A stretch of 36,520 bases of DNA from Bernardetiaceae bacterium (GTDB lineage Bacteria > Bacteroidota > Bacteroidia > Cytophagales > Bernardetiaceae): contig JAFIER010000211.1 in NCBI GenBank assembly GCA_020832465.1, positions 1 to 36,520 of the forward strand, in the 5' to 3' direction. Position numbers and translations under genes: made by a program. The notes beneath the pieces were generated by a model that saw nothing but the letters and a program-made list of their open reading frames with translations, did not search any database and had not been told where the DNA came from. Position 1 is the first letter of the stretch. Every line of letters begins with the position of its first letter. Below are positions 7,947 through 34,311 of this stretch, in pieces.

Positions 7947-8049
7947 ATCATACTACTGTATATCTGCCAGCCATATCTAAGCTCATTTTTCCATAGCGCG
8001 TGGGGTTTGCAAACCCTACGCGCTATGGAAAAATCTATAGTTGTATGAT
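7947..8049. repeat. Palindromic element, family B (copy B3), with 5-bp duplication
   Basis: A 103-bp element with inverted ends ATCATACTACTGTATAT and ATAGTTGTATGAT, flanked on both sides by GCAAA (7942-7946 and 8050-8054). The core is a 40-bp stem, TTTTTCCATAGCGCGTGGGG and its complement around TTTGCAAA. There is no coding capacity. Confidence 0.78.
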
Positions 8050-8212: not shown

Positions 8213-8393
8213 ATCATACTATTAGACATTCACGGTAGTCTTAAAGATGTAATGCTCAAAGTCTTTCAAAACTAACAGTTCTCAAAGAACTGTTAGTTCT
8301 AAGCATTACTTGTTATGCACTACCGCCATCAATAACATTTTTTTGAGAAATGTTATTACTAAGCCCATTTTACTATATCATCTGTGGTATGAT
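8213..8393. repeat. Family B element (copy B4) interrupted by a family A element
   Basis: Ends ATCATACT (8213) and GTATGAT (8393) are flanked by perfect 5-bp duplications TTGCA (8208-8212 and 8394-8398). The 90 bp belonging to B4 are split after position 8233 by copy A1. The remaining right part holds an AATAACATTT...AAATGTTATT hairpin (8331-8356). Confidence 0.75.
8234..8324. repeat. Family A MITE-like element (copy A1), nested in B4
   Basis: 91 bp, ends GGTAGT / ACTACC, almost identical to copy A4 in the same orientation. The internal stem is AACTAACAGTTCT...AGAACTGTTAGTT. Unlike A2-A4, the 8-bp flanks differ (ACATTCAC and GCCATCAA), so the target duplication is missing or lost. Confidence 0.78.
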
Positions 8394-8410: not shown

Positions 8411-9112
8411 TTAACTCTCTGCGTGCAAAGCTACTAATTCCGTGAGTTTAGCTACGGCTTTTCTAATGCCTTCGTATGTACCAGCGACGGAGTTTTCCAT
8501 CATATAGCAAGGCGTAGTGATGATATTATGCAAGTCATCTACAACAATTTCTTCTTTGCCACACATAATGGCTTCTGCCCCTGTGGCATTGATACCCTGA
8601 CTAATAGCATCTATTTCGTAGGGCGATTTTTCTTCGATATTGCCTACTGTCAATTTGATTTTATCACCTTTTGTACCTTCTAAGGCTTTAGCAAGCGTAG
8701 TGGGTGCCATACAAAGGGCAGCGACGGGCTTACGATGCCTGACCATTTCTTTGATAAGATTGGCTACACCTTCATCAATGCTACCTTGGGGGCCTTCAAA
8801 AGCCCATTTAGTAAAATTTTTGGCTACACCAAAACCGCCTGGTAGTACTAATCCGTCTAAATCTGATTCTTTTATATCAGCAAGTTTTGTAATTTCGCCT
8901 CTTGCAATTCGAGCGGCTTCGACAAAAACATTGCGTGTCTCTTGCATCGGCTCACCTGTAACGTGATTGATAACGTGATGCTGCTCAATATCAGGCGCAA
9001 TACACACAACCTCTGCCCCTTCTTGCTCTAAAGCAAGCAAAGTGAGCACAGCCTCATGAATTTCAGAGCCATCATAGACCCCGCAGCCAGAAAGTAATAC
9101 ACCGATTTTCAT
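8411..9112 (-). CDS. elbB: ElbB-like DJ-1/PfpI family protein (isoprenoid biosynthesis glyoxalase ElbB)
   Basis: Cytosolic member of the DJ-1/PfpI superfamily, related to E. coli ElbB, which has glyoxalase III-like activity. The physiological role is poorly defined. The 233-residue product has the family start MKIGVLLSGCGVYDGSEIHE and the LPGGFG loop. The nucleophile-elbow cysteine lies in AALCMAPTTLAK, and the C-terminal part includes TTPCYMMENSVAG. Length and start (ATG at 9110-9112) agree with the family. It is a single gene with a terminator-like hairpin at 8080-8110. The name is firm at family level; the reaction is not shown by sequence. Confidence 0.92.
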   Translation of the reverse strand: MKIGVLLSGCGVYDGSEIHEAVLTLLALEQEGAEVVCIAPDIEQHHVINHVTGEPMQETRNVFVEAARIARGEITKLADIKESDLDGLVLPGGFGVAKNFTKWAFEGPQGSIDEGVANLIKEMVRHRKPVAALCMAPTTLAKALEGTKGDKIKLTVGNIEEKSPYEIDAISQGINATGAEAIMCGKEEIVVDDLHNIITTPCYMMENSVAGTYEGIRKAVAKLTELVALHAES

Positions 9113-9280: not shown

Positions 9281-9390
9281 GGGCGTACGACAACTTTGCT
9301 AAATTAGCTCCGAAATAACATTTCTGTCAGAAATGTTATTTCTATAAGTTCTGATACTACCTAAGTCGATTTACCAACTTGACGACACCC
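9281..9390. repeat. Family C MITE-like element (copy C1) with 8-bp duplication
   Basis: 110 bp with imperfect inverted ends (GGGCGTACGACAACTTTGCT left; GGGTGTCGTCAAGTTGGTAA read inward from the right). The perfect 8-bp direct repeats TTAAAAAT lie at 9273-9280 and 9391-9398. The central hairpin, GAAATAACATTTC-TGTCA-GAAATGTTATTTC, is at 9312-9342. Confidence 0.82.
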
Positions 9391-9443
9391 TTAAAAATTG
9401 ATAAGCAAACGCTTATAAAGTCTTTTTAGGGAGCTTTGCGTTG

Positions 9444-11370: not shown

Positions 11371-11659
11371 TACTTATATTTTTGGGTTAAAAAAGGGAAG
11401 GCTGACTTGCCATTCCCGTAAGGTATAAAGAGGATATTTCAATAAAAAGTGTAAAACATTAGTTTTTTTGCAAAAAAAATGCTTATCTAATCAAAATTCA
11501 AAATTATTAAAATTCGTTCAAAATAAATCACTTTGTTGAGTAATTTCGTTTAAATTATGGGTAGTGTATAACAAGTAATGCTTAGAACTAACAGTTCTTT
11601 GAGAACTGTTAGTTTTGAAAGACTTTGAGCATTACATCTTTAAGACTACCAAATTATGA
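11371..11659. other. Intergenic region between the two racemase genes
   Basis: No gene. The right third is taken up by MITE-like copy A2 with its target duplications. The remainder (11371-11551) is very AT-rich with no recognisable site. Confidence 0.6.
11560..11650. repeat. Family A MITE-like element (copy A2) with 8-bp duplication
   Basis: 91 bp, GGTAGT...ACTACC, inverted relative to A1 and A4. Perfect 8-bp direct repeats AAATTATG flank it (11552-11559 and 11651-11658). The central stem is AGAACTAACAGTTCT..AGAACTGTTAGTTTT. It lies 2 bp beyond the duplication from the alr stop codon, where its hairpin could act as a 3' transcript end. Confidence 0.88.
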
Positions 11660-11660
11660 T

Positions 11661-12890
11661 TCATTCCGTGATATAGCGTGGGATCGCCTTAGGCAATCGT
11701 GTAAGTAGCTCATAATTGAGCTGATTGCTATATTCACCAAAAGAAGCTACTGAGATGCTCAAGCCTTGTTGCTCGCCTATAAGTATGACTTCATCGCCTT
11801 TTTTAATATCTGGTGCTTCTTTGATGTCCACAATGCTGAGGTTCATATTTACTACGCCAATGATAGCGAGGCGTTTGCCTTTGATGATTACTCTTCCAAT
11901 ATTGGTCATAGAGCGACTGTAGCCATAGGCATATCCTACGGGAATCGTACAAATCTTGGTGTTTTCTTGTGTAAGATAGCTTGTACCGTATCCAATAAAC
12001 TCATTTACACCGACTTGCTTAACGCTCATAACCCTGGTTTTCCAACTAATAACTCTTTTCAAAGGGTCATCTATATGCGGAAATTGTGTGCGGTAGCGAA
12101 TATAAGTTTCACGGCTGGGCCAAAAACCATATTGCATAATTCCGATACGCACCATATCCATCTGAGTTTTTGGATATGAAAAAGTTGCTGCTGAGCAAGC
12201 AGTATGCAAGTAATTAGGTATTAAGCCCTTGTCTAAAAAAAGTGTTTTGATTGTATGAAAAACTTCAATTTGTTTTTTTACTCTTACATAATTCGCTACA
12301 CTCTCCGCACCTGCGTAATGCGTACAAATGCCTTCGAGTACGTAGTGAGGTTTCCAATCTTCTAATATTTGAATTACTTCTGGAAGTTCTTGGCTTACGA
12401 ATCCCGTGCGGTTCATACCTGTCTCCACTTCTATATGAATGCGTACTTGCTTGCCCTGTTTTTTTGCTACTGTTAAAGCTTGTTTTAAACGGTCTAACTC
12501 AAATATATAAATTTCTATATCTTTGCTAATAGCCCATTCGAGGTCGGCATTATCTATCCAGCCCATAATCATAATATCGGCATCAGAAGAGGCGCAAGCA
12601 CGAACCCTACGAGCTTCATTGCAACTAAATACAGAAAAATGTCTTACACCATACTCACACATAAGCGGTACGATTTGCTCTATGCCATGCCCATAGGCAT
12701 TACCCTTGACAACCGATGAAATACGTGTATCTTTATGGATAAAATCTCGCAAAAAACTTAGGTTATTGTGTAGGGCTTTCCTACTTAGTGTGATATAAGA
12801 AGTACTTGAACCACTATCCATTACCTCTGGCAGTGGAAAAGCATGAATATTATCATAAGGAGCAAGATTATTATTGGAGTCTGTGGTCAT
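11661..12890 (-). CDS. alr: Alanine racemase
   Basis: PLP enzyme making D-alanine for peptidoglycan. The 409-residue product carries the lysine motif SVVKGNAYGHG (Lys62), the pyridine-contacting arginine in VRIGIMQYG (Arg249) and the catalytic-tyrosine motif IGYGTSYLT (about Tyr301). A C-terminal beta domain follows. The start is taken at the ATG at 12888-12890 (MTTDSNNNL); an upstream in-frame TTG at 13070 would add 60 residues of low plausibility. Where most Alr proteins have MDQ or MDM in the C-terminal domain this one has VNMNLSIVDI, so a broader substrate range cannot be excluded. Part of its leader and first codons are repeated at 13222-13258. A family A element follows the stop codon. 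Confidence 0.9.
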   Translation of the reverse strand: MTTDSNNNLAPYDNIHAFPLPEVMDSGSSTSYITLSRKALHNNLSFLRDFIHKDTRISSVVKGNAYGHGIEQIVPLMCEYGVRHFSVFSCNEARRVRACASSDADIMIMGWIDNADLEWAISKDIEIYIFELDRLKQALTVAKKQGKQVRIHIEVETGMNRTGFVSQELPEVIQILEDWKPHYVLEGICTHYAGAESVANYVRVKKQIEVFHTIKTLFLDKGLIPNYLHTACSAATFSYPKTQMDMVRIGIMQYGFWPSRETYIRYRTQFPHIDDPLKRVISWKTRVMSVKQVGVNEFIGYGTSYLTQENTKICTIPVGYAYGYSRSMTNIGRVIIKGKRLAIIGVVNMNLSIVDIKEAPDIKKGDEVILIGEQQGLSISVASFGEYSNQLNYELLTRLPKAIPRYITE

Positions 12891-13094
12891 TATTTTTGCG
12901 TGTTTTTGAGTGAGGTAGCACGATGCAATATAAAATGCAAGGTACAATTGGAGTGGTATAGCAAGCATTAAAAATGCGTTCGAATTACAAAACCACTTAT
13001 TTAACGCATTATAACAGCTTTTTGTTTTGATTTTCGATTTTGAGCAACTCAAATGACGACAATATATCAAAACATAGCGTGCGTAAATACAGAA

Positions 13095-13321
13095 GTGTGT
13101 ACGCCAAATTAGCTAATTGGCTTAGGTTGTTTCAGCGCTAACAGTTTTAAAAACTGTAGCCCGACGCTCCAGCTTCGGAAGCATTCTACTATAAGGAAGC
13201 TGGCGCTTCGTTACTACAGGCTTGGAGTCTATGGTCCTCCTTTTTGCGTGTTTTTGAGCAATTCAAGTTTTCTGACAGAAATGTTATTTCTGTACTAATT
13301 TAGCAAAGTTGTAGTACATCT
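13095..13321. repeat. Composite family C element (copy C3)
   Basis: The left end GTGTGTACGCCAAATTAGCT and the right end (read inward) GATGTACTACAACTTTGCTA match family C ends. The flanks ATACAGAA and AATCAGAA agree at 6 of 8 positions, like an eroded duplication. Inside, in order: an AACAGTTTTaAAAACTGT palindrome, a GCTTCGG/GAAGC segment (13162-13220), a piece of alr leader (13222-13266), and half of the GAAATGTTATTTC hairpin. Confidence 0.62.
13222..13258. repeat. Duplicate of the alr leader and first codons
   Basis: This 37-bp stretch matches 12874-12910 at 33 of 37 positions, in the same orientation. The original spans the alr start codon; here the ATG has become AGG on the minus strand (CAT to CCT). 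The match extends as TTTTGAGCAA-TCAA into 13259-13266, but the corresponding sequence near alr sits at 13038-13052 instead. Confidence 0.65.
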
Positions 13322-13366
13322 AATCAGAAGGTTTATAGTCAATTTGAACAAAAGGCTACTATATCA

Positions 13367-14545
13367 TTATTTTGATTTTTGGATAAGCGCTTTATCAAAA
13401 AGTAAGGTTTTGGCAATACCGATAAAAAGATGTACACCTGTATCGAGAATTTCGTCGGGGAAGTCATAATCAGGATTATGCAAAGCGGGGGTTTGCTCTC
13501 CTGCACCTATACCAAACATAGCACCTTTGAATTTTTCGGTAAAAAATCCAAAATCTTCTCCCCATTTGAAAGCAAAATCTTTGTCTGTAACTTTATAATT
13601 AGCTTTTTGGGCTACTTTTCTAATAATTTGATTTGCTTCTTGATGATTTCGATTAGCAAGGAACATTTCAGTCCAAGCACTTTCAAATTCTAAATGATGT
13701 TTTTTTGTAATTTGCTCTACGGTATCGATAATCTGTTCTGAAAATTTTCTCATAACAGCATTTTTCCATGCCCTTATAGTAAGGTGTAGTTCGCCATATC
13801 CAGCTGATACGCCATAGGCTTTTTCTCCTAAGCAAGCATATACGGGTGTTATAAGTTTGAAGTCATCGCAATTTGCATTTGGTTCTTGCATTTGCTGGCA
13901 AGCCATAATGATTTCGGCAATAGCCATAGCTGGATTTACACCATTTTCGGGCTCGGCAGCATGCGCTGTTTTGCCTTCAAAACGCAAAATCAAACTTTGT
14001 ACTGCTGCGGTAAATGAGCCATCACGTACAATAACTTCATTTAATGGCAACTGAGGCAGATTGTGATATGCAAATACCCAATCGGGGCAGAAATCCTTAA
14101 AACGGTCATCTTTGCATACTGCTTGTGCGCCTCGCCCGTTCTCCTCTGAGGGTTGGAAAAGCAAAATAGCACGTCCCTTTTCGGGTGGATTTTGAGCTAA
14201 AAAACAAGCTAAACCCACGAGCGTACTTGCATGACCATCATGACCGCACTTATGTGATACACCATCATAAACCGAGCGGTAGGGCATTTCATTTTCCTCT
14301 TGAATAGGCAAAGCATCTAACTCTGCTCTAAAAAGGACTGTTTCGCCCTCTTGCTCACCTTTATAAATGGCTAAAATCCCTGTACCGCCAACCTCTGTTA
14401 TAAGCTCATCAGGGGGAGCATTTTCTTTCAAAAAATGACAGATTCTTTTTGCTGTTTCATGCTCTTTGCCAGAAACTTCGGGATACTGATGTAGTGTATG
14501 ACGCAGCGATTTAATTCGTTCAATGTCTATATCTAAGTCTATCAA
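13367..14545 (-). CDS. M20 family amidohydrolase / peptidase (HipO-like)
   Basis: Cytosolic metal-dependent hydrolase of subfamily M20D, which releases amino acids from N-acylated forms (hippurate or IAA-amino acid hydrolase type). The 392-residue protein shows the metal-site motifs HKCGHDGHAS (about residues 97-106), QPSEENGRGA, AYHNLP and LHNPDYDFPD, and the EDFGFF segment. The lid dimerisation domain lies between about residues 180 and 290. The start is a TTG at 14543-14545 (MIDLDIDIERIK): a stop codon lies two codons upstream and no ATG occurs before the metal-binding domain. The natural substrate is not evident. No signal peptide is present. Confidence 0.9.
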   Translation of the reverse strand: MIDLDIDIERIKSLRHTLHQYPEVSGKEHETAKRICHFLKENAPPDELITEVGGTGILAIYKGEQEGETVLFRAELDALPIQEENEMPYRSVYDGVSHKCGHDGHASTLVGLACFLAQNPPEKGRAILLFQPSEENGRGAQAVCKDDRFKDFCPDWVFAYHNLPQLPLNEVIVRDGSFTAAVQSLILRFEGKTAHAAEPENGVNPAMAIAEIIMACQQMQEPNANCDDFKLITPVYACLGEKAYGVSAGYGELHLTIRAWKNAVMRKFSEQIIDTVEQITKKHHLEFESAWTEMFLANRNHQEANQIIRKVAQKANYKVTDKDFAFKWGEDFGFFTEKFKGAMFGIGAGEQTPALHNPDYDFPDEILDTGVHLFIGIAKTLLFDKALIQKSK

Positions 14546-14586
14546 TGTTTATTGTGTGTTTTGTTGTATTGTTGTTTGTGTTATTA

Positions 14587-14649
14587 ATCATACTGCCCCC
14601 ATAGGACTATACATTTTTCCATAGGGCTTAGCAAAGTTGCCATACGCCC
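14587..14649. repeat. Fused fragments of families B and C
   Basis: A family B left end (ATCATACTGCCCCCATAGGA, from 14587) runs into ACATTTTTCCATAGGG. It is then joined to the right end of a family C element, TTAGCAAAGTTGCCATACGCCC (14628-14649). It lies just past the stop codon of the M14 gene. Confidence 0.55.
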
Positions 14650-14657
14650 GTTAGCAA

Positions 14658-16493
14658 CTATCTTATTTCGTTAAAAGTACGCACTACGGGGTAGCGCAAA
14701 TGTTGCTGCTCTAAGTAGTGTGGCGAGTTTTTATATACAAAATCTAATTGTGCGCGTGCATCTTTAGCAAAAACAGGGTCTTTCTTGCGCTTTTCTTCGA
14801 GCTCTTTTCTTAGATTTGGATTTTCTCTTAGGATTTCGGCAGCGAGGTCTTCGAAAACATAATCAGAAAATCCTTCTTTTTGCTGTAAAATGCTATCAAA
14901 AAAGTTCCAATTAAAAAAAGAATCAGGTGCGTGTGGCTCTAAGGTTTCTACCAAATAGCGCACTGCAGGCTGTTCGGTATAAACGATATAGTCTCCTTTT
15001 TTTATTTTTACCAACTCACCTTTTACTTCAATGCGCACATCGCTATGCAGATAATGCCCTTCGTAAGGGTAGGTAGATGTTTTATAATTGCGAATGTAAT
15101 AGACTTCTGCTTTTATATCTTTATCGCTATTTGCTCGTTCGAGCCTTACACCATTGGATTCTAAAATAGCGATGACTCTATGCCAAGCCTGCGGGATAAT
15201 GTAAGCAAAAGGTTTTTGTGCTACTTCGACCTCTCTGTAGTAAGTATAATACGGAATTTCTAATTCACGTATTTGCTCTGGGTCATAGCGCAGGCGTTTC
15301 AAACCGCTGACTTCACTTATTACGGAATCGGCTTTATAAGCCTTAAATTTTATTTTTTCATGTCGCCCTTTCTCGGGTAGCCAATCAAGTGGAAAAGCAC
15401 TTTGTAGCTGTATTTGTGCACGTGCTTCATCGACGATATAGGTAAACTTACGGCTTTGCAAAACCATTAAATTAGCAACCTCTTCGAAGAAGGCTAAGGT
15501 AGCCTCTACACGTTTATCAAAGGGTTTGAGCATGTGCGTTTCGATGACAATGCTCGGCGTTTGAAAAAGCGTAGCATATCCGGAGGAGTAGCGTGGAGAG
15601 TCATAAAATTGTGTATAGCCCTTGTCTGGTGTATCGTTCCAAATATTGACATAGGGGATAATCTCTTCGCCACGTTCTGCCATTTTTTGCTCGAGTATGG
15701 GCGTTATACTTCGCATAAAACTTCCAATAATAGGACCAGCCTTATCGTATTGCGAAGCCAGATAAGTAAGTGTATAGGGATAATCAGCGCCATTGCTCAC
15801 ATGCGTATCCAAGAAAAAGTGTGGTTTCCAATGGTGGAATATTTCGGCAAAAGCCTTAGCATTTTTGCTATCTTGCTTGATAAAATCGCGATTAAGGTCA
15901 TAGTTTTGAGCGTTTCCACGAAATCCGTAATGTGCCGGACCGTTTTGATTTACTCTTGTATGACTATTTCTGTTGAGCGCACCCCCGATATTATAGCATG
16001 GTATGATCACAATTTTGAGATTTTCGTATTGTGTGCGCAGGTTTTTATCGTTTGCCAATTTTTTGCACCAAAGCATAGAAGCATCGATGCCGTCGGGCTC
16101 TCCAGGGTGTATGCCATTGAGTATGAGCAATACCATTTTTTCCGCTTCTGGTTCTTCGGCTTCGTTTGTGGTAGCTTTTCGTTCGTCTTCGCTATTGGTT
16201 TTCTCTTTGTTTCTATCTTTGGGGGCGGGTGGTTCAAAGTTTCTATCTGCCGAAAAAATAACGGTATGCAAAGGCAATCCTGCATCAGTCATTCCAACTT
16301 CTTTGATTTCAAAAAAGCGGGAGCTCGAGGCGAGGTTTTTATAAAATTCTATTGTTTCGTAATAGGTAGCGGTTGCCTTACCATTAGATTTTTCAAACGG
16401 TGTTTCAAGATTTTTTTGCGCTTGCGATAGATGCTGAAATCCTATGATGGAAATACAAAAAAATAAGATTTTGAAAATGATATGTTGCGTCAT
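14658..16493 (-). CDS. Exported M14 family zinc carboxypeptidase
   Basis: Secreted or periplasmic peptidase of the M14 carboxypeptidase family. The 611-residue protein has a signal peptide (residues 1-25, ending SQAQ). The zinc ligands His129 and Glu132 lie in NGIHPGEPDG, and the third histidine in FFLDTHVSNG. The substrate-binding segment NYDLNRDF and the catalytic glutamate candidate in VIETHML also fit. About 300 further residues form a C-terminal region found in Bacteroidota relatives, with a very charged end (ELEEKRKKDPVFAKDARAQL). Unusual is a low-complexity Glu/Lys/Asn/Pro-rich insert at residues 87-119, just before the zinc motif. The start is ATG at 16491-16493. Substrate unknown. 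Confidence 0.9.
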   Translation of the reverse strand: MTQHIIFKILFFCISIIGFQHLSQAQKNLETPFEKSNGKATATYYETIEFYKNLASSSRFFEIKEVGMTDAGLPLHTVIFSADRNFEPPAPKDRNKEKTNSEDERKATTNEAEEPEAEKMVLLILNGIHPGEPDGIDASMLWCKKLANDKNLRTQYENLKIVIIPCYNIGGALNRNSHTRVNQNGPAHYGFRGNAQNYDLNRDFIKQDSKNAKAFAEIFHHWKPHFFLDTHVSNGADYPYTLTYLASQYDKAGPIIGSFMRSITPILEQKMAERGEEIIPYVNIWNDTPDKGYTQFYDSPRYSSGYATLFQTPSIVIETHMLKPFDKRVEATLAFFEEVANLMVLQSRKFTYIVDEARAQIQLQSAFPLDWLPEKGRHEKIKFKAYKADSVISEVSGLKRLRYDPEQIRELEIPYYTYYREVEVAQKPFAYIIPQAWHRVIAILESNGVRLERANSDKDIKAEVYYIRNYKTSTYPYEGHYLHSDVRIEVKGELVKIKKGDYIVYTEQPAVRYLVETLEPHAPDSFFNWNFFDSILQQKEGFSDYVFEDLAAEILRENPNLRKELEEKRKKDPVFAKDARAQLDFVYKNSPHYLEQQHLRYPVVRTFNEIR

Positions 16494-16706
16494 GGCTTAA
16501 TTGCTTTGTCTTTTACAGCAGGGGTGCGTAAAAAATTTTTGATTGAGTTTTTAGAAAAATATGATTCTGTTTTCCTTGTTTGGGTATCCTTGCCAAACAC
16601 TTACAAAACAAATTTTTATTTACAAAACCAAAAAAATGCTAATCAAAGTTTACTTCTCTGCGTTTTTACACAAACACTGCTCAGGTTTATTTTAAAATTT
16701 ATTGTA

Positions 16707-17534
16707 TTATTTGACAGCTACAACGACCATATTCCAAGCCAAACGGCGCACTAAGGGCAGTTTGAGCAGTGCGCTATCGAGGGCGCGCAAGGGCTTAAAC
16801 CACCAGCCTATGGTTTTGTTGTTTTCTTTATAAATGCGTTTCCAATATCGCACTTTATTGGGATTGTAGCGTTTTATTAAATAGTAATGCAAAAAAAGAT
16901 ATAGCGTAGAGAGCCAAAACTCACGATGCGATACTTGGGTAAAATATTTGCGATACAATTTTAGAATATCAAATCCCAATGGCATCTCATCAATGGTGCG
17001 TACTTCTGTAGCCATACGGCGATATACATTGATAACGGGGTTGTATTTGATAGGATCCCAAGTATAGAGTTTTCCGCCTTTTTTTAGAAAATGGTGCATA
17101 TTAGCAATCCAATCTTCTTGCTCTTCGGGCGGTACGTGGTGCATCAAATTTGCACAATAAATAAAATCAAAAGTATCAGCTTCAAAAGTCATTTTTTCGG
17201 CGGGCGTTATGACCGTTTTGATGCTTGTGCCGTGGTGTGCGGCGAGGGCTTGGGCAAGCTCGCCCATTTTAGGAGAGATGTCGTTATAAGTAACCTCTGC
17301 ACCTTGCAAAGCAAAATAAGTGGAGCTTTCGCCTAATCCTGCGCCTACATCTAAGATTTTTTTGCCTTGCAAATTACCCATATCCTGAATAATAAACTGA
17401 TTTTCAATGGCACATAAACCTTCAAAAAGGGCATGCACTTCAATATCTTCTAAGGCTTCGGAGGTTGCCCAATCGTCGTGAAACTCGGTTTCTCGTTGAT
17501 GTAAAGCTTCTATAGATTGATTTTCTTTTGACAT
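16707..17534 (-). CDS. Class I SAM-dependent methyltransferase
   Basis: Predicted methyltransferase of unknown substrate, 275 residues. The Rossmann core has motif I ILDVGAGLGES (residues 60-70), an acidic end of the second strand in VTYNDISPKM, and motif IV DFIYCANLMHHVPP. Motif VI is GGKLYTWDP. After the core comes a basic, aromatic-rich C-terminal region of about 100 residues with a hydrophobic helix (STLYLFLHYYLI), suggesting membrane association. Such tails occur in ubiquinone/UbiE-like and lipid methyltransferases, but no specific family is recognisable. The start is ATG at 17532-17534. A family C element lies 43 bp upstream, possibly within its promoter region. Confidence 0.85.
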   Translation of the reverse strand: MSKENQSIEALHQRETEFHDDWATSEALEDIEVHALFEGLCAIENQFIIQDMGNLQGKKILDVGAGLGESSTYFALQGAEVTYNDISPKMGELAQALAAHHGTSIKTVITPAEKMTFEADTFDFIYCANLMHHVPPEEQEDWIANMHHFLKKGGKLYTWDPIKYNPVINVYRRMATEVRTIDEMPLGFDILKLYRKYFTQVSHREFWLSTLYLFLHYYLIKRYNPNKVRYWKRIYKENNKTIGWWFKPLRALDSALLKLPLVRRLAWNMVVVAVK

Positions 17535-17577
17535 AATCTTGTATTTCTGTATGACTTTATTGCTTTATGCTTAAAGG

Positions 17578-17790
17578 GGGTGTACGACAACTTTGCTAAA
17601 TTAGCACCGAAATAACATTTCTGTCAGAAATGTCGTTTCTAAAAATTTGACATCTAATATCTTTACAGCCTGTAGTACGAAGCTCCAGCTTCGTTATAAG
17701 CCACTTCCGAAGCAGGTGCTTCGGGCTACAGCTTTAAAAACTGTGAAGGCTGAAACTACCTAAGTTGATTTACCAACTTGACGTACACCC
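17578..17790. repeat. Family C MITE-like element (copy C2), long form, with 8-bp duplication
   Basis: 213 bp. Ends GGGTGTACGACAACTTTGC and CAACTTGACGTACACCC are flanked by perfect direct repeats CTTAAAGG (17570-17577 and 17791-17798). The left half matches C1, including the AAATAACATTTC-GAAATG hairpin. About 100 extra bp form a second structured module, with GAAGCTCCAGCTTC and CCGAAGCAGGTGCTTCGG palindromes (17682-17733). Confidence 0.82.
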
Positions 17791-17845
17791 CTTAAAGGCA
17801 AAGATACAATAAATTTGTGGAATAGGATATATTTCAGTGTGTTTT

Positions 17846-17889
17846 GGGTGTACGTCAAGTTAGCTAAATTCGCTCAGAAATGTTATTTC
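17846..17889. repeat. Family C left-end fragment
   Basis: GGGTGTACGTCAAGTTAGCT continues into TCAGAAATGTTATTTC, matching the left arm of family C. No matching right end is present before clpS, so the element is truncated. Confidence 0.55.
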
Positions 17890-17941
17890 AGGCTGTTCAA
17901 GGTCTAAGTAGTATGATGATACATATAGTTGTACAACAAAA

Positions 17942-17974
17942 AAGCGCAAAATTGTTGTTCACAAAATTACGCTT
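17942..17974 (-). terminator. Probable clpS terminator
   Basis: AAGCG...CGCTT arms with additional AATT pairing; on the minus strand it is followed by a TTTTTTGTTGT run. It lies about 45 bp beyond the clpS stop codon. Confidence 0.5.
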
Positions 17975-18016
17975 CTCACAAGGATCTCTTCGTGCATAGC
18001 TTACCATTGACAAGCA

Positions 18017-18304
18017 TTAGAGCACCTCTGCCGATATTCCACGGTCGCATATTGCATTGCGCATAGGGGCTAACTTATCAAAGTCTCCACTTTTAACGGC
18101 GCATTTGCCACGGTAATGAATAATAAGCGAGCATTGCTCGGCTTGCTGTGGGGTATGCTCACAGACTTTGACTAAGGTTTTGATGACATGCTCAAAGGTA
18201 TTGTAGTCATCATTAAAAACTACAAGTTGTTTGATTTCGGTTTCTTTGACCTCAACTTGCTCTTGTACTAATGTTTCGGTATGGGCTTCAAATATAGATT
18301 CCAT
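18017..18304 (-). CDS. clpS: ATP-dependent Clp protease adaptor ClpS
   Basis: Small cytosolic adaptor that hands N-degron substrates (proteins with bulky N-terminal residues) to ClpAP or ClpCP. The 95-residue product has the family core: VVFNDDYNTFEHVI (residues 28-41), whose Asn-Asp pair lines the substrate pocket, HTPQQAEQCSLIIHYRGKC, and the end RGISAEVL. An acidic, flexible N-terminal tail of about 25 residues (VQEQVEVKETEIKQ) is as expected for the segment that engages the unfoldase. The start is ATG at 18302-18304. smpB lies 182 bp upstream on the same strand, but a terminator between them argues against one transcript. Confidence 0.95.
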   Translation of the reverse strand: MESIFEAHTETLVQEQVEVKETEIKQLVVFNDDYNTFEHVIKTLVKVCEHTPQQAEQCSLIIHYRGKCAVKSGDFDKLAPMRNAICDRGISAEVL

Positions 18305-18407
18305 ATCTTTGCTTAATTTTTTTTATTTGAAAATACGAATAAAAATACGCAAATTTTTATCGCAAATGCAAATTATTTGCATACTTTTTTTGAAAAAAAT
18401 ATTTAGG

Positions 18408-18448
18408 CATAAGCAATAACATTTTTGAGAGAAAGATTATTGCTTATG
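18408..18448 (-). terminator. smpB terminator
   Basis: Perfect 12-bp stem CATAAGCAATAA (18408-18419) and TTATTGCTTATG (18437-18448). On the minus strand it runs into CCTAAATATTTTTTTC, a T-rich tail fitting an intrinsic terminator for smpB. Confidence 0.75.
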
Positions 18449-18451
18449 CTC

Positions 18452-18493
18452 AAAGTTACTTATGCTCAATATAAAGTTACTTATGCTCAATAT
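18452..18493. repeat. 21-bp tandem duplication at the smpB 3' end
   Basis: AAAGTTACTTATGCTCAATAT occurs twice in direct succession (18452-18472 and 18473-18493). The right copy includes the last two codons and the stop of smpB. Confidence 0.85.
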
Positions 18494-18951
18494 TTCATGC
18501 GTTGCAACTCTCTTTTTTGGTCTTTTTCTTTGATAGACTGACGCTTATCATAGAGTTTTTTACCTTTGGCTAAGGCAATTTCTACTTTAGCTAAGCCTCT
18601 ATCATTGATAAAAATACGCTTAGGAATAATGGTTAGTCCTTTTTCGCTCATTCCTGTTTCGAGTTTGCGCAGTTCTCTTTTTTGCAACAGAAGTTTGCGT
18701 TCTGCTTTGGCATCGTGGTTATGAATATTGCCTCTTTCGTAGGGTGAAATATGCAAATTACGTATAAAAAGTTCGCCGTCAATGAAAAGACAAAAAGCAT
18801 CTTGCATATTGACTTTTGCTTGACGTATAGATTTGATTTCTGTGCCTTGCAACACAATTCCAGCCGTATAAGTATCTATGAAGCTATATTCAAAAGAAGC
18901 TTTGCGGTTTTGAATATTGATATTTTTTTTAAACTTTTCGTTCTTTGCCAT
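18487..18951 (-). CDS. smpB: SsrA-binding protein SmpB
   Basis: RNA-binding protein that, with tmRNA, rescues stalled ribosomes by trans-translation. The 154-residue protein has the full family pattern: RKASFEYSFIDTYTAGIVL, QGTEIKSIRQAKVNMQDAF, ISPYERGNIHNHD, RKLLLQKRELRKLE and the basic C-terminal tail KKLYDKRQSIKEKDQKREL. The tail inserts into the empty mRNA channel. The start is ATG at 18949-18951. The tmRNA gene itself (ssrA) was not found in the window. The stop codon lies within a 21-bp tandem duplication, which has not altered the reading frame. Confidence 0.97.
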   Translation of the reverse strand: MAKNEKFKKNINIQNRKASFEYSFIDTYTAGIVLQGTEIKSIRQAKVNMQDAFCLFIDGELFIRNLHISPYERGNIHNHDAKAERKLLLQKRELRKLETGMSEKGLTIIPKRIFINDRGLAKVEIALAKGKKLYDKRQSIKEKDQKRELQRMKY

Positions 18952-19093
18952 GGTATTTTTGGGGTATTTTTTTTACTTGCTTGAAAAATAGCAATATTTC
19001 GCATACTGCCTTAGCTTAACTGCCTATACTAACTTATCTAGGCAAAAAATGGTTCGATAATTTTGTAATAATTAGCGATTATTGGGTTTAGGC

Positions 19094-19289
19094 GGGTGTG
19101 CGTCAAGTTGATAAATAGACTTATAGGGTGCAATTCATATTTACGCAGTAGCATAAGCTACTGTCTTAAAACAACTACTATCGCCGTGTTTGGTGTCCTC
19201 ACCAAACACAAACCGCGTAGTTCTGAAATGCACCCGACCGACTTAGGTAATTTCATCACTAACAGTTTTTGAAAACTGTTGGTGCTGAG
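19094..19289. repeat. Family C element (copy C5) interrupted by element D1
   Basis: It begins GGGTGTGCGTCAAGTTGATA as family C. After D1 it continues with CGACTTAGGTAATTTCATCA and an AACAGTTTTtgAAAACTGTT palindrome, the order seen inside C2 read from its right end. A right terminal repeat is not recognisable, so the right limit is approximate. Confidence 0.55.
19126..19235. repeat. Palindromic element, family D (copy D1)
   Basis: 110 bp with inverted ends GGGTGCAATTCATA and TTCTGAAATGCACCC. Two internal hairpins are CAGTAGC-ataa-GCTACTG (19146-19163) and GTGTTTGGTG-tcct-CACCAAACAC (19186-19209). GACTTA is repeated close to both sides, consistent with a target duplication inside the host family C element. 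A 17-bp fragment of the same end is at 6964-6980. Confidence 0.6.
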
Positions 19290-19355
19290 TCATAGGTTGC
19301 TTCATCGATATAAACCATTTTATTGCAAGTAGTTTATACCCAAAACTAAAGCACA

Positions 19356-19392
19356 AAAAAGCAATGTCTCTGTATAAGAGACCTTGCTTTTT
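19356..19392 (-). terminator. Terminator of the siaB-siaC operon
   Basis: Stem AAAAAGCAAtGTCTCT / AGAGACctTGCTTTTT around a 5-nt loop. It is followed on the minus strand by TTTTTTGTGCTTT and placed just past the siaC stop. Confidence 0.82.
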
Positions 19393-19435
19393 GTTTATAC
19401 TTATCGTAAATGTGGCAAGTTTTAGCTACACACTC

Positions 19436-19819
19436 TTATTCTTCTTCTATCATGTGCATATTGATTTTGACATCAATAATATCCTGAAAATCTTCTCCTG
19501 ACTCTTGCATATCTTCGTCGTCTTCTTCGTAGAACCAATTGATAAGGACATCTTGTCCTTTCTCTTGAAGATGCTCGAGTTTACGGAATATCTCGACGAT
19601 ACACTTAGATGAGCTCGTATTAAAATATTCGAGCTTTACATCAAGTATAGAGTTTGCTTGTGGGGATTCTATATACTTATCAAGCCACTCGAAGAGTGGT
19701 CTGTAAAACTCTATGGAGTTTTCAGGTATAGAACGTCCTTCAACAACAAATTTTCCGGTGCCCGCATTAAAATCTAAGAGTGGGGTCTTGCTTGTGCCTT
19801 CCAAATAAAAATTTTCCAT
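19436..19819 (-). CDS. siaC: SiaC family regulatory phosphoprotein (DUF1987)
   Basis: Homologue of Pseudomonas SiaC, the small protein phosphorylated by SiaB and dephosphorylated by the PP2C phosphatase SiaA. There the unmodified form activates the diguanylate cyclase SiaD. The 127-residue product matches the family: STKTPLLDF, GRSIPENSIEFYRPLFEWL, and the phosphosite region EYFNTSSSK with the acceptor threonine at residue 68, the same number as in SiaC. NWFYEEDDEDM follows. The start is ATG at 19817-19819. It lies 26 bp after siaB and is followed by a strong terminator, so the two form an operon. No diguanylate cyclase is in the window, so the output must differ or lie elsewhere. Confidence 0.9.
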   Translation of the reverse strand: MENFYLEGTSKTPLLDFNAGTGKFVVEGRSIPENSIEFYRPLFEWLDKYIESPQANSILDVKLEYFNTSSSKCIVEIFRKLEHLQEKGQDVLINWFYEEDDEDMQESGEDFQDIIDVKINMHMIEEE

Positions 19820-19845
19820 TCGTATATATAGAGCAGTGAAATTTT

Positions 19846-20412
19846 TTATGCTGAAACTATTACTTTCAAACTGAAAAATGAATTACCATCTTGGCAATCC
19901 TTAAACTCGTAGTGAAGTTTTTCACCCGATCTTTTTGCTATATCAATAATTCCTAATCCAGCACCGCCTTTTTCAGAGAGTTCGCCGTGATGCAATTGTT
20001 CACGATATAACATTCTGATTTCGTCTTTTGATGCTTGATTGATTTTATCGATGTGCGCTTTTAGATTTGCAATATCTTTATTGGGGATAAAATTACCTGT
20101 AATAATAGAGTACCCATCATCGTTTTTTGCCAAAATAAAAATAATAGCATTTTGTTCTTGCGAATTTTGATATAAATTTTTATCAAAATGATTTTGAACG
20201 TTTTGAATCGTTTCTATTAAAATGTGATATACCTTTTTTCTGAGCTTCGATTGTGATTCGAGCATAGCAAGTCGCTCATCGATAATAGATAGCATGCTAT
20301 CTAAAAGCGTATGCGATGGTGCGCCTTTGTAAGACATAATAATGCCTTCAGGTAGTATGGTACGATAATATGCGCTAATATTCAATTTTATTTTAGGCGT
20401 TTGATACGGCAA
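19846..20412 (-). CDS. siaB: SiaB family protein kinase
   Basis: Kinase of the GHKL fold that phosphorylates SiaC on threonine. The 188-residue protein has the N-box helix ILIETIQNVQNHF (Glu67, Asn71) and the glycine-rich ATP lid GGAGLGIIDIAKRSG (residues 149-163). The N-terminal part has the family-like SYKGAPSHTLLDSML. Two starts are possible: TTG at 20412, used here because the residues before SYKG resemble the family's first strand and helix and a TGA directly precedes it, or ATG at 20335-20337 giving 163 residues. It is first in the siaB-siaC operon. Two SpoIIE-type phosphatases in the same window (26498-28582 and at the right edge) are candidate antagonists. Confidence 0.85.
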   Translation of the reverse strand: MPYQTPKIKLNISAYYRTILPEGIIMSYKGAPSHTLLDSMLSIIDERLAMLESQSKLRKKVYHILIETIQNVQNHFDKNLYQNSQEQNAIIFILAKNDDGYSIITGNFIPNKDIANLKAHIDKINQASKDEIRMLYREQLHHGELSEKGGAGLGIIDIAKRSGEKLHYEFKDCQDGNSFFSLKVIVSA

Positions 20413-20505
20413 TCAATAATCAATATTAAAAGCGCGATAACTTACTACGGCATAACGATATAATAACATCATTAAAACTTATGTAGCAGGCTACGCAAAA
20501 CTATT

Positions 20506-20545
20506 CTACTTAAAGGAGCATAAAAAGATGCTTTTTATCAAGTAG
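20506..20545 (-). terminator. Possible terminator of the glycosyltransferase gene
   Basis: Outer arms CTACTT (20506-20511) and AAGTAG (20540-20545) enclose GAGCATAAAAAGATGC. The structure is AT-rich and has no strong T-run, so it may be only a weak terminator downstream of the gene ending at 20613. Confidence 0.35.
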
Positions 20546-20612
20546 GAATATTATAATTGTAAATATACAAAAATAAAAAACGAAACCAAATTTTTATGCA
20601 AAAAAACTAAAA

Positions 20613-21806
20613 TTATTTTTTTGCAGTCTGATAGTATTGAAAATTCGCTACGGTCTCTACCTCGGCATCAGCTACTATAGTTTGCTTTTGCAAAGGTAAG
20701 CGATTGATAGCTTTTTCGTATTTTCGGATAACAATGCGTTGGTCAAATTTGGTTTCGGCTACGTGCCGGCTATTTCGTCCTAGTTCGGCAAGGTAGCTAT
20801 TATCCATTTGCATAAGGCGTTGCATTTTATCTGCCAAATCATAGGGGTCTTTGACTTTGCAAAGATAACCGTTATAATTATGTATGACAGTTTCGCGGCA
20901 GCCGGGCACATCAGTTGCAATAAGTGGCTTACCTAAAGATGCAGCTTCTAACAAAGTACGTGGCGTTCCTTCCCTGTAGGAAGGCAAAACTACACAGTCT
21001 GCATTGATAATCGCAGGGCGTACATCTGATACAGTACCTAAATATTCTATCAAACCTTCGTCGACCCATTTTTGAATATCGCACTCAGGTATTCCTAATT
21101 TTTTGCCTTCGTCGAGCTTACCTAAAATTTGAAATTTAGCCTGAACACCCTTAGCTTGCAATAAGCGTATAGCTTCGATATACTCGAGAATGCCTTTGTC
21201 GTAAAGTAAGCGTGCAATAAGCAAAAAGGTAAAGGTTTTGGGTTTCGAAGCATGCGCTTGCAAAAGCTGGGGCTGAAAATGATCTATATCTACGCCCGAG
21301 CCTGGGAGCGTATCAGCAATATGCTTTTTGATTAAGCCTTTTTGTAAAAAAAGATTTAAGTCATCTCCATTCTGAAAAAATACTAATGCTGGAAAACGAA
21401 ATGAAATTTTATATAAAAGACGAGCCACACGGGACGAGATTCCTCTATGGATAAAAACAGTACCCAGCCCCGTTACATTATTGATAACAGGAATAGACAA
21501 GGCTTTTGCAGCAAGCGTACCGTAAATATTGGGTTTTATGGTATAATGCAAAATGACATCAAAACCATGCTTTTTATAAATTTTATAAAGTTGAGAAAAA
21601 AGCCGTACGTCTTGAAAGGGGTTAGTACCTTTAGCTTCTATTGCCAAAGGTTCAAAACTACAGCCCATTGCCTCAATCTGTTCGGCATAACCATCATCAG
21701 CAGCAATAGCTACTACTTCATAATTTTTATTGATAAAAGACGCTATGAGTCCTTTGCGAAAGTTATAAATATTCCAAGCAGAATTTACCACAATTCCTAT
21801 TTTCAT
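20613..21806 (-). CDS. Glycosyltransferase family 4 protein
   Basis: Cytosolic GT-B glycosyltransferase that probably adds a sugar to a lipid-linked or surface glycan. The 397-residue protein starts MKIGIVVNSAWNIYNFRKGL. The N-terminal domain contains IKPNIYGTLAAK and INNVTGLGTVF. The C-terminal GT4 domain has FLLIARLLYDKGILEYIEA and the nucleotide-sugar EX7E motif in SYREGTPRTLLEAASLGKPL, then VPGCRETV. The start is ATG at 21804-21806; a reading from TTG at 21890 would add 28 Asn/Tyr-rich residues and is rejected. It looks most like PglA/WbpX-type transferases of polysaccharide loci, but no other glycan gene is nearby. Donor and acceptor are unknown. Confidence 0.92.
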   Translation of the reverse strand: MKIGIVVNSAWNIYNFRKGLIASFINKNYEVVAIAADDGYAEQIEAMGCSFEPLAIEAKGTNPFQDVRLFSQLYKIYKKHGFDVILHYTIKPNIYGTLAAKALSIPVINNVTGLGTVFIHRGISSRVARLLYKISFRFPALVFFQNGDDLNLFLQKGLIKKHIADTLPGSGVDIDHFQPQLLQAHASKPKTFTFLLIARLLYDKGILEYIEAIRLLQAKGVQAKFQILGKLDEGKKLGIPECDIQKWVDEGLIEYLGTVSDVRPAIINADCVVLPSYREGTPRTLLEAASLGKPLIATDVPGCRETVIHNYNGYLCKVKDPYDLADKMQRLMQMDNSYLAELGRNSRHVAETKFDQRIVIRKYEKAINRLPLQKQTIVADAEVETVANFQYYQTAKK

Positions 21807-22224
21807 ATATTTAATGTTTTTGTTAAGGTAACAGATTTGATAATTGTTGTTGTGGTAGTACTTGTTGTCATTGGGTAGGCATTTTGGCAAATATTATTTT
21901 TGACTTCTGATATGTACATTTTTAACGCAATTTGAAAATAGTTTAAAAAATAAGTTTTATTTGATGCACGCATTAAATAAAACTTAGCAAAGGTCTTAAA
22001 AACTATACTATTTTGTATTACAAACATATCAATTTTTTAAAAACTTAGCAATTTGAGCTAAAGCTATAAGACTTTCGGTAGTGTATAACAAGTAATGCTT
22101 AGAACTAACAGTTCTTTGAGAACTGTTAGTTTTGAAAGACTTTGAGCATCATATCTTTAAGACTACCAGACTTTCAAAGCCTTCTATGCTTTTATTGTTA
22201 AAATAGCAAAAAACAATCCAAAAA
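21807..22224. other. Intergenic region glycosyltransferase / radA
   Basis: 418 bp without a credible gene. It is AT-rich with a GTTGTTGTGGTAGTACTTGT-like low-complexity stretch at 21844-21870, and holds MITE-like copy A3 near its right end. Confidence 0.6.
22077..22167. repeat. Family A MITE-like element (copy A3) with 8-bp duplication
   Basis: 91 bp, same orientation as A2 and differing from it at only a few positions (GAGCATCATATC versus GAGCATTACATC). It is flanked by perfect direct repeats AGACTTTC (22069-22076 and 22168-22175). It lies 57 bp past the radA stop codon. Confidence 0.88.
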
Positions 22225-23610
22225 TTAAAAAAAGTGAGGTAAAATGTCCTCAAGTTTTCCAAAAGCGTGTACTTTTATGCCGTAATTGGCTAAATCAATG
22301 GCTTTCATATTGTATTTTGATATATAAATTTCGCGGTATCCGAGCTTTTCGGCTTCTGCTATTCGGTTCTCTATGCGGCTAATCGCTCTGACCTCACCTC
22401 CTAAACCGACTTCTGCCGTAAAGCATACGTGCTCGGGCAGGGGCTGGTCATGATAAGAAGAGACAACGGACATACATACGGCTAAATCAATCGCGGGGTC
22501 TTCGATTTTAAGGCCGCCTGCAATATTTAAAAATACATCTTGAGCAGCCAAACGATAACCGCCACGCTTTTCTAAAACCGCAAGTAGCATGTTAAGACGT
22601 TTAGCATCATATCCCGTACTGCTTCGCTGCGGTGTGCCGTAAGCTGCGGCGCTGACCAAGGATTGGACTTCAATAAGAAGAGGGCGGTTGCCCTCTACGG
22701 TTGCGCCTATGGTGATACCACTCAAGCCTTCGTCTCTTTGTGAAATCAAAATTTCAGAGGGGTTGCTTACTTCGCGTAATCCTGTAGCCCGCATTTCATA
22801 AATACCAATTTCGGACGTAGAGCCAAAGCGATTTTTCATTGTCCGTAATAGGCGGTAGGTCAAGTGCCTATCTCCCTCGAATTGCAATACAGTATCGACC
22901 ATGTGTTCAAGGATTTTCGGACCAGCAATAGCCCCATCTTTGGTAATATGACCGATAAGAAACACTGGAATTTGACGTTCTTTCGAGAAACGCATCCATT
23001 CGCCAGTGCAATGACGCACTTGGGAGATACTGCCCGCACCCGAGTCAATGTAGCTTGTATAAAGTGTTTGAATAGAATCTATAATGACAATATCAGGCTC
23101 GAGTTCGTTGATGCGTGAAAAGATTTTTTCAATATTCGTTTCCGTGAGTACATAGCAATCAGGTGATCTATCGCCGAGGCGGTCTGCCCGCATTTTTATT
23201 TGTTGCTGGCTCTCTTCGCCCGAGACGTACAAAACTTTACACATTTTGAGGGCAAGCGCAAGTTGTAGCATAAGTGTAGATTTGCCAATACCTGGCTCAC
23301 CACCTATTAAAATCAAGGAGCCTGGTACAATTCCTCCTCCTAAAACTCGATTAAGCTCTTCGTCGTAGGTAGGAATGCGAGGGGAATCCTCTGCTTTGAT
23401 TTCTGAAATTTTAGTAGGGTGGTTATCTGCTTTTCGCCCTTTTGCATCGGGTTTTTGCCACGCTTTTTCTTGCGTTTTGTTATCATCTTTATCTAAAATT
23501 TCCTCTACGAAGCTATTCCATTCGCCACAGGCTGAGCATCTGCCGAGCCATTTAGCCGATTCGTAACCACATTCTTTACAGAAATAGGCTTTTTTTATTT
23601 TTTTTGCCAT
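22225..23610 (-). CDS. radA: DNA repair protein RadA
   Basis: RecA-like ATPase that helps process recombination intermediates by driving branch migration. The 461-residue protein has all family parts. A four-cysteine zinc finger lies at the N-terminus (CKECGYESAKWLGRCSACGEW). The Walker A motif is GGEPGIGKST (about residues 92-101), Walker B is in PDIVIIDSIQT, and the RadA signature KNRFGSTSEIG is present. A C-terminal Lon-like (S16-fold) domain spans about residues 285-461. The start is ATG at 23608-23610, directly before the zinc finger. A family A element separates it from hflX upstream, and another lies past its stop. Confidence 0.97.
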   Translation of the reverse strand: MAKKIKKAYFCKECGYESAKWLGRCSACGEWNSFVEEILDKDDNKTQEKAWQKPDAKGRKADNHPTKISEIKAEDSPRIPTYDEELNRVLGGGIVPGSLILIGGEPGIGKSTLMLQLALALKMCKVLYVSGEESQQQIKMRADRLGDRSPDCYVLTETNIEKIFSRINELEPDIVIIDSIQTLYTSYIDSGAGSISQVRHCTGEWMRFSKERQIPVFLIGHITKDGAIAGPKILEHMVDTVLQFEGDRHLTYRLLRTMKNRFGSTSEIGIYEMRATGLREVSNPSEILISQRDEGLSGITIGATVEGNRPLLIEVQSLVSAAAYGTPQRSSTGYDAKRLNMLLAVLEKRGGYRLAAQDVFLNIAGGLKIEDPAIDLAVCMSVVSSYHDQPLPEHVCFTAEVGLGGEVRAISRIENRIAEAEKLGYREIYISKYNMKAIDLANYGIKVHAFGKLEDILPHFF

Positions 23611-23665
23611 AGAAAGCGGAGTTTTTGGGTATTATGCTATAAAGCAAGTTGAAAGTGCAAAATAA

Positions 23666-23756
23666 GGTAGTCTTAAAGATGTAATGCTCAAAGTCTTTCA
23701 AAACTAACAGTTCTCAAAGAACTGTTAGTTCTAAGCATTACTTGTTATACACTACC
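23666..23756. repeat. Family A MITE-like element (copy A4) with 8-bp duplication
   Basis: 91 bp, same orientation as A1 and differing from it at about one position. Perfect direct repeats CAAAATAA lie at 23658-23665 and 23757-23764. It fills most of the gap between hflX and radA, 9 bp beyond the hflX stop codon, so it lies in the radA upstream region. Confidence 0.88.
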
Positions 23757-23765
23757 CAAAATAAC

Positions 23766-34199: not shown

Positions 34200-34311
34200 T
34201 GGTAGCAACGAAGCACCAGCTTCGTTGTAAGCTACTTCCGAGGCTTGAGTTTCGGGCTACAGTGTGAGTGTTGAAACTATCTAAGCCGATTTACTAACTT
34301 GACTTACACCC
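34200..34311. repeat. Family C fragment, right half (copy C4)
   Basis: It contains the CGAAGCACCAGCTTCG palindrome module and the right end ACTAACTTGACTTACACCC, ending at 34311. This part closely follows the right half of C2 (17682-17790). The left terminal repeat is missing. Confidence 0.6.

Follow-up and report, generated by a model that had tools for sequence, protein, structure and literature searches.

A probable IS1-family miniature element with a core resembling a repetitive extragenic palindrome in a Bernardetiaceae bacterium

The window analysed here is a stretch of 36,520 nucleotides of contig JAFIER010000211.1, from the draft assembly of a Bernardetiaceae bacterium (GCA_020832465.1; G000 in our genome set; 4.6 Mb, 289 contigs), and it contains four copies of a 91-bp element with the ends GGTAGT/ACTACC. 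Judged from its sequence and that of its relatives, the element is very probably a non-autonomous miniature inverted-repeat transposable element (MITE) of the IS1 family, moved in trans, whose core is most likely a captured palindrome resembling the repetitive extragenic palindromes (REPs). Direct inspection placed the four copies, all of 91 bp, where a preliminary description of the window had put them: A1 at 8234-8324 (plus strand, one mismatch to the consensus), A2 at 11560-11650 (minus strand, no mismatches), A3 at 22077-22167 (minus strand, two mismatches) and A4 at 23666-23756 (plus strand, no mismatches). The three different, perfect 8-bp target duplications that it reported were likewise present on both flanks, namely AAATTATG at 11552-11559 and 11651-11658 around A2, AGACTTTC at 22069-22076 and 22168-22175 around A3, and CAAAATAA at 23658-23665 and 23757-23764 around A4. 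A1 is without a target duplication, its flanking 8-mers agreeing at only four of eight positions. The element is short (below about 300 bp), gene-free and bounded by 23-bp imperfect inverted ends; in A4, taken as an example, the left IS1-type end lies at 23666-23688 on the plus strand (GGTAGTCTTAAAGATGTAATGCT) and the right one at 23734-23756 on the minus strand (GGTAGTGTATAACAAGTAATGCT), and the two agree by eye at 18 of 23 positions. The interior is not recognisable as insertion sequence (IS) DNA. It holds a palindrome with 13-bp arms and a 3-nt loop, at 23702-23730 in A4 and, from a repeat and palindrome scan, at 8270-8298 in A1, 11586-11614 in A2 and 22103-22131 in A3; its strength, already remarked upon, is reflected in a fold of -30 kcal/mol (z -6.3 against 200 shuffles). 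In the window, Rfam gave no match at the gathering score and ARAGORN no tRNA.

The element is dispersed through the whole assembly in many near-identical copies. A 91-position pattern with fixed positions found 96 full-length copies at no more than three mismatches, and its reversed control none; an ungapped scan of the fetched loci and the window, allowing up to nine mismatches, gave 97 distinct copies with flanks. Among these, 76 are identical to the consensus, 14 have one change and seven have two to four. A perfect 8-bp duplication borders 77 of the 97 copies (64 of the 76 identical copies and 13 of the 21 variants), compared with 13 of 9312 mismatched pairs of left and right flanks, and five further copies match at seven of eight positions. 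Perfect repeats of 7 bp were seen in three of 96 copies and of 9 bp in none of 96, in a preliminary count whose prefilter missed some copies and admitted one alignment with ten mismatches. The earlier claims that the element was inserted as a unit and moved recently are thus borne out by the duplications and fit the number of identical copies, respectively. Some aberrant copies were also noted. A 94-base variant (C84:16794-16887) has three extra bases near its right end, and a 73-bp copy (L093:1453-1525, on contig C175) has lost half of the palindrome, perhaps through a palindrome-linked deletion, and has no duplication. Two half-copies, at L001:752 and L053:2118, are both broken beside the palindrome, one retaining only the right end and the other only the left.

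The ends of the element point to its parent family. Terminal repeats of IS1-family elements follow a general motif of the GGT(A/G)NTG type. The 24-nt right end recurs at 100% identity in genome G023 of the same order, one of 39 searched, where the adjoining open reading frames (ORFs) match the profiles DDE_Tnp_IS1 (PF03400, 71.8 bits) and Zn_ribbon_InsA (PF03811, 30.4 bits). The 23-mer at the right of A4 is identical at the IS1 elements of G023 and G039, and in G039 the end, InsA and InsB follow in a row (PF03400, 74.8 bits). The end type at the left of A4 borders other MITEs and, in G087, a 1022-bp IS1-like element that has both ends together with ORFs resembling InsA and InsB (PF03400, 53.2 bits). 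A degenerate end pattern (GGTAGTNTNNAANANGTAATGCTNB), which does not match the 91-bp element itself, hit 10 of the 390 genomes searched in the order, our own among them by way of the 73-bp variant, and the reversed control gave none; across GTDB genome contigs the same pattern found 59 stretches. In JAAFIU, a Cytophagales metagenome-assembled genome (MAG), 18 stretches match; 17 of them break off 122-127 bp into the element, nine of the 18 showing the C-terminus of InsB at that point, and the one remaining stretch holds InsA. A multicopy IS that interrupts assembly would leave such a pattern. PF03400 exceeds its cut-off in 95 of the 390 genomes. Perfect 8-bp duplications flank two of the five IS1 elements of the order that have two recognisable ends and both flanks, most of these ends being related, not identical, to those of the MITE; a sixth element runs off its contig. 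Ends shared with a putatively autonomous IS are found in G023, G039, G087 and one Cytophagales MAG, and the terminal repeats stand beside InsA/InsB genes in relatives. IS1 elements give target duplications of 8-9 bp, and those of 77 of the 97 MITE copies are 8 bp long. The preliminary description had proposed a search for an IS with matching ends; such 23-bp ends do adjoin IS1-type transposase genes elsewhere, chiefly in Cytophagales. Since these ends adjoin IS1 transposase genes, and the published IS1 layout includes 8-bp duplications, IS1 is the parent family indicated. Parentage rests on the duplications and the shared ends, which also suggest mobilisation by an enzyme of this type.

The insertion sites carry further information on the transposition. 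In the 77 duplicated copies the duplicated 8-mer is 77% A/T. At the second position beyond the duplication, about 98% of copies have T or A on the left side (T 0.71) and about 97% have A or T on the right side (A 0.65), compared with 68.5% A/T in MITE-free gaps. Such symmetry in the A/T preference is expected of a transposase acting on both strands. Empty sites, which had been proposed as a check, were found as paralogous places in the same genome, not as orthologous ones, no same-genus genome being among those searched. Under a strict test, which asks for an uninterrupted place with at least 12 bases and at least 75% identity on each side of the 8-mer, 10 of the 77 joined flanks pass, compared with a mean of 1.8 and a maximum of five in 20 shuffles of the flanks. 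The single copy of the 8-mer at the matched place is exact in three of the 10 and agrees at 6-7 of eight positions in the other seven. We regard this support as moderate.

The palindrome in the core is one that the genome itself holds in abundance, a point absent from the preliminary description. Hairpins of the core type, with 13-bp arms AGMAMTAACAKTTCT-NNN-AGAAMTGTTAKTKCT, occur at 1002 places in the genome at no more than three mismatches (control, 0), and the MITE cores, that of A4 among them, belong to this REP-like family of about 1000 copies, differing from the hairpin pattern at one position. About 97 of the places would be MITE cores, which leaves some 900 outside the MITE. In a set of 81 palindromes outside full-length MITEs, selected by the left arm alone and not by complementarity, stem positions covary (A-T 57 and C-G 13 at position 3; T-A 57 and G-C 13 at position 11), and such paired changes imply that the hairpin fold is maintained. 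The core is therefore a short palindrome of more than 100 copies with a covarying stem, as are REPs; its consensus carries by eye no GTAG or CGTC tag. Close to the 81 standalone palindromes, the best matches to the MITE ends resemble those at 278 random positions, with a full 23/23 match at one of the 81 and at two of the 278, probably half-copies. Among 11 genomes of the family, our own included, only G003 also has the palindrome pattern (six places). BLAST gave at least 26 matches there (23 of 38 candidates scored), all of them in the core part among the matches listed; the end pattern was not found in G003, and one G003 flank inspected shows no ends. Because the standalone palindromes lack better-than-random ends and the G003 cores lack the end pattern, capture by the MITE of a REP-like palindrome already dispersed outside it is the most likely origin of the core. 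A terminator role for the core, though it may exist, gained no support: none of 21 terminator-like sites between 7900 and 24000 of the window is a MITE core, in a scan that is weak at low G+C. By eye, no T-run follows the core stem.

A second MITE-like family in the same loci carries the palindrome as well. Its ends are GGGTGTACG(A/T)CAA..., its lengths 81-247 bp and its cores variable. Of 12 paired examples, three have perfect 8-bp duplications and eight match at seven or more of eight positions, a level that none of 132 control pairs reached. Short arm motifs of the core palindrome (about eight bases, and thus possibly chance occurrences) are present, one or more per element, in 10 of the 12, and several show the whole palindrome. 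Members lie in the window at 9281-9391, 17578-17790 and, less clearly, 13095-13321, and elsewhere in L024, L037, L038, L040, L048, L053, L066 and L068. Two MITE types with unrelated ends hence carry the same palindrome. Nested insertion of self-mobile palindromes into MITEs would look alike, and the data do not separate it from capture. According to the available text of one source, IS elements of five families target REPs, and IS1 is not one of the five (PMC1525189); insertion into REPs is a possible route by which an IS could take up a palindrome.

The converse history, in which the palindrome originated in the MITE and the standalone copies are relics that lost their ends, is improbable. 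The half-MITEs broken at or near the palindrome in two loci, and the 73-bp copy without half of it, are what such decay would produce. However, the palindromes outside the MITE far outnumber the MITE, the end matches beside them look like those at random positions, the G003 matches stop short of ends for which no pattern was found there, and the second family, with other ends, often holds the arm motifs; decay is therefore disfavoured in comparison with capture.

Other observations weigh against the IS1 reading itself. A perfect 8-bp duplication is missing in 20 of the 97 copies. The G023 element has a poor other end (15/23), and inspection by eye reveals no duplication in its flanks. In G087 the 1022-bp element lacks a target duplication, and a stop lies within its PF03400 match. 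A looser empty-site count of 14 of 77 is weak, as shuffled flanks pass 8.0 times on average, probably because the flanks often hold palindromic repeats. No IS1 transposase was found in the draft assembly, either with the PF03400 profile or with G023 InsB and G039 InsA as queries, the empty result of the query searches being weak because no known positive was included. The only PF03400 match (21.9 bits) is below the cut-off and has four internal stops, among unrelated long ORFs. As the profile does detect the genes of G023, G039 and G087, an assembled relative in our genome should have appeared. We infer that an IS1-type transposase nevertheless did the work here, and that this genome's enzyme has been lost, is unassembled, or resides in foreign DNA or elsewhere: 76 identical copies imply a young burst, for which the enzyme would have been present recently or would lie in unassembled or foreign DNA. 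In the mechanism we propose, two 23-bp IS1-type ends bracket a short gene-free core and would both be bound by an IS1-family transposase supplied in trans. The element would then be joined to staggered cuts 8 bp apart in an A/T-rich target, gap repair would yield the 8-bp duplication, and each transposition would also disperse a REP-like hairpin.

Families besides IS1 also make 8-bp duplications, and the preliminary description had named ISL3 or IS1595 as possible parent groups. A transposase of one of these or of another such family (IS256) could have moved the element, the likeness of its ends to IS1 being coincidental, and the lack of an IS1 transposase in the assembly would fit this. We consider this very unlikely: identical or near-identical 23-bp ends adjoin IS1 transposase genes in several genomes, and the reversed control found none over 390 genomes. 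ISL3 or IS1595 parentage was abandoned on the same grounds, as the ends match IS1-family elements instead and the transposase genes identified beside them were of IS1 type; the ISL3, IS1595 and IS256 profiles themselves were not searched in our genome.

Elements of the same design as the IS1-type MITE occur in other genomes. G004, of the same family, has a 110-bp MITE with the same end type, another core and a perfect duplication. A short pair of ends is present in 16 of the 59 GTDB stretches, and eight of these have perfect 8-bp duplications (three in JANYGM, two in Pontibacter, two in Calditrichia and one in a Cytophagales MAG). Folding of 18 elements, including our 73-bp variant, gave a strong inner fold (-13 kcal/mol or lower) in nine (our own, L159, L200, L164, L178, L167, L201, L168 and L204), a moderate one in L152 and weak ones in eight; these energies are raw, without shuffle comparison, and are biased toward long or G+C-rich cores. 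Palindromic cores are frequent among such MITEs without being required. The cores of the two Pontibacter elements are unlike each other, as are those of L159 and L170 of one MAG. IS1-like ends also surround strong hairpins at L168:3609-3735 (Poribacteria) and L204:2028-2131 (Crenothrix), both without perfect duplications and the latter with a weak left end. No convincing standalone copy of the core was found in the 8-13 kb examined for Poribacteria, Crenothrix and Pontibacter. For Calditrichia G390, a search with one element gave at least 49 matches (40 of 148 candidates scored), of which many span ends and core and others the core only (for example, query 22-114 and 24-113). The pair of ends is present in 10 of 20 fetched loci, four of the 10 with perfect duplications; two of those four, L205 and L206, are apparently L164 and L201 again. 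The G390 core is reversed relative to the ends in L219 clearly, and in L214 with a less certain end assignment, and the occurrence of both orientations points most readily to capture on more than one occasion. The Calditrichia core may resemble CGTC-type repeats; a literature text search on its motif returned only unrelated papers.

That the 91-bp element is instead a REP or bacterial interspersed mosaic element, spread through its palindrome by a REP-associated tyrosine transposase (RAYT, of IS200/IS605 type) with passive ends, would suit a REP-like core with about 900 copies outside the MITE, but can practically be discounted given the perfect 8-bp duplications at the outer ends of 77 of the 97 copies, which IS200/IS605-type elements are not known to make, and given that some MITEs with such ends have cores that fold only weakly.

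Regarding genomic context, three of the window copies lie close to the 3' end of a called ORF, as had been pointed out (A2 at 10 bp, A3 at 57 bp and A4 at 9 bp), and A1 lies 86 bp past the 3' end of ORF 8411-9112. This proximity is weaker genome-wide. Relative to ORFs, which are plain longest-ORF calls and not gene predictions, six of the 97 copies overlap a call by more than 15 bp, nine are at a stretch edge, 51 are in tandem gaps, 16 in convergent and 15 in divergent ones. The comparison with 3000 random positions in MITE-free intergenic gaps uses the 82 classified intergenic copies, excluding the 15 at edges or overlapping calls, and sets percentages side by side without a formal test: 19.5% of the copies lie in convergent gaps, compared with 9.2% of the random positions, and the share no more than 60 bp from an ORF 3' end is 42.7%, compared with 25.1%. 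The bias toward gene 3' ends is mild, and targeting of these ends as a rule was discarded. Two other repeats were noted nearby. A 48-bp near-perfect palindrome (CATTTTTCCATAGCGTGGGGTTTGCAAACCCCACGCTATGGAAAAATG) occurs at 7985-8034 of the window and in other loci (for example, L024:1760-1807 and L037:1040-1087), in several of them a few bases from the REP-like palindrome. A 55-bp repeat with the hairpin ACGAAGC-CCAGCTTCGT occurs at 17677-17731 and 34208-34262, the two being 85% alike, and is also seen within long elements of the second MITE-like type.

These results indicate a parent family for a very recent MITE burst, and the approximately 97 marked insertions, together with the target rule, are usable as material. 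They also bear on how REP-like sequences spread without a dedicated transposase, since the palindrome is present in two MITE-like families here, and palindromes are found between IS1-type ends in Calditrichia. A tentative generalisation, which we think may well prove wrong, is that DDE-type IS ends (IS1-type and at least one other) repeatedly take up REP-like palindromes of the host and spread them as MITE cargo. The hairpin core may in turn aid the MITE, for example by pairing the ends or by reducing damage at gene 3' ends.

Comparison with known systems, as far as the available texts describe them, places the element among familiar ones. The inverted repeat of an ISAba3-like IS1 element is 24 bp long (GGTGGTGTTTCAAAAAGTATGCTG); its duplications are of 8 bp and, in the reported case, lie around an 8.5-kb insert with an IS copy at each boundary (PMC6382973). 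The end layout and the 8-bp duplications are the same here, and InsA/InsB adjoin such ends in relatives; in contrast to that element, ours has no transposase gene and its core is unrelated. MITEAba12, from the same source, is similar in its size of about 113 bp, in terminal inverted repeats shared with a full IS, in A/T-rich target duplications and in presumed mobilisation in trans, and differs in its 9-bp duplications, found in 40% of 90 copies, and in the GGCTTTGTTGC ends that it shares with ISAba12 (PMC6382973). The core, at 1002 places, is like the GTAG/CGTC class of REPs in being short, intergenic and of high copy number, and unlike it in lacking, by eye, either tag; how CGTC repeats spread without a known dedicated transposase is left as an open question in the available text of that source (PMC3733652). 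A literature search by title and abstract, with subscription journals mostly outside its reach, found no IS1-family MITE with a REP core. A close parallel is QMITE2 of Coxiella burnetii, a MITE that contains a REP, is accompanied by short REP-like copies and lies mainly in intergenic or gene 3' regions; it differs in its length of 150-190 bp, its repeats of 7-11 nt and its GTAG-type palindrome, and no IS1 parent is named in the text consulted (PMC5896051). The 91-bp MITE is of a known kind, and its repeated palindrome cargo is less ordinary, with QMITE2 as the one published precedent in the sources available (PMC5896051).

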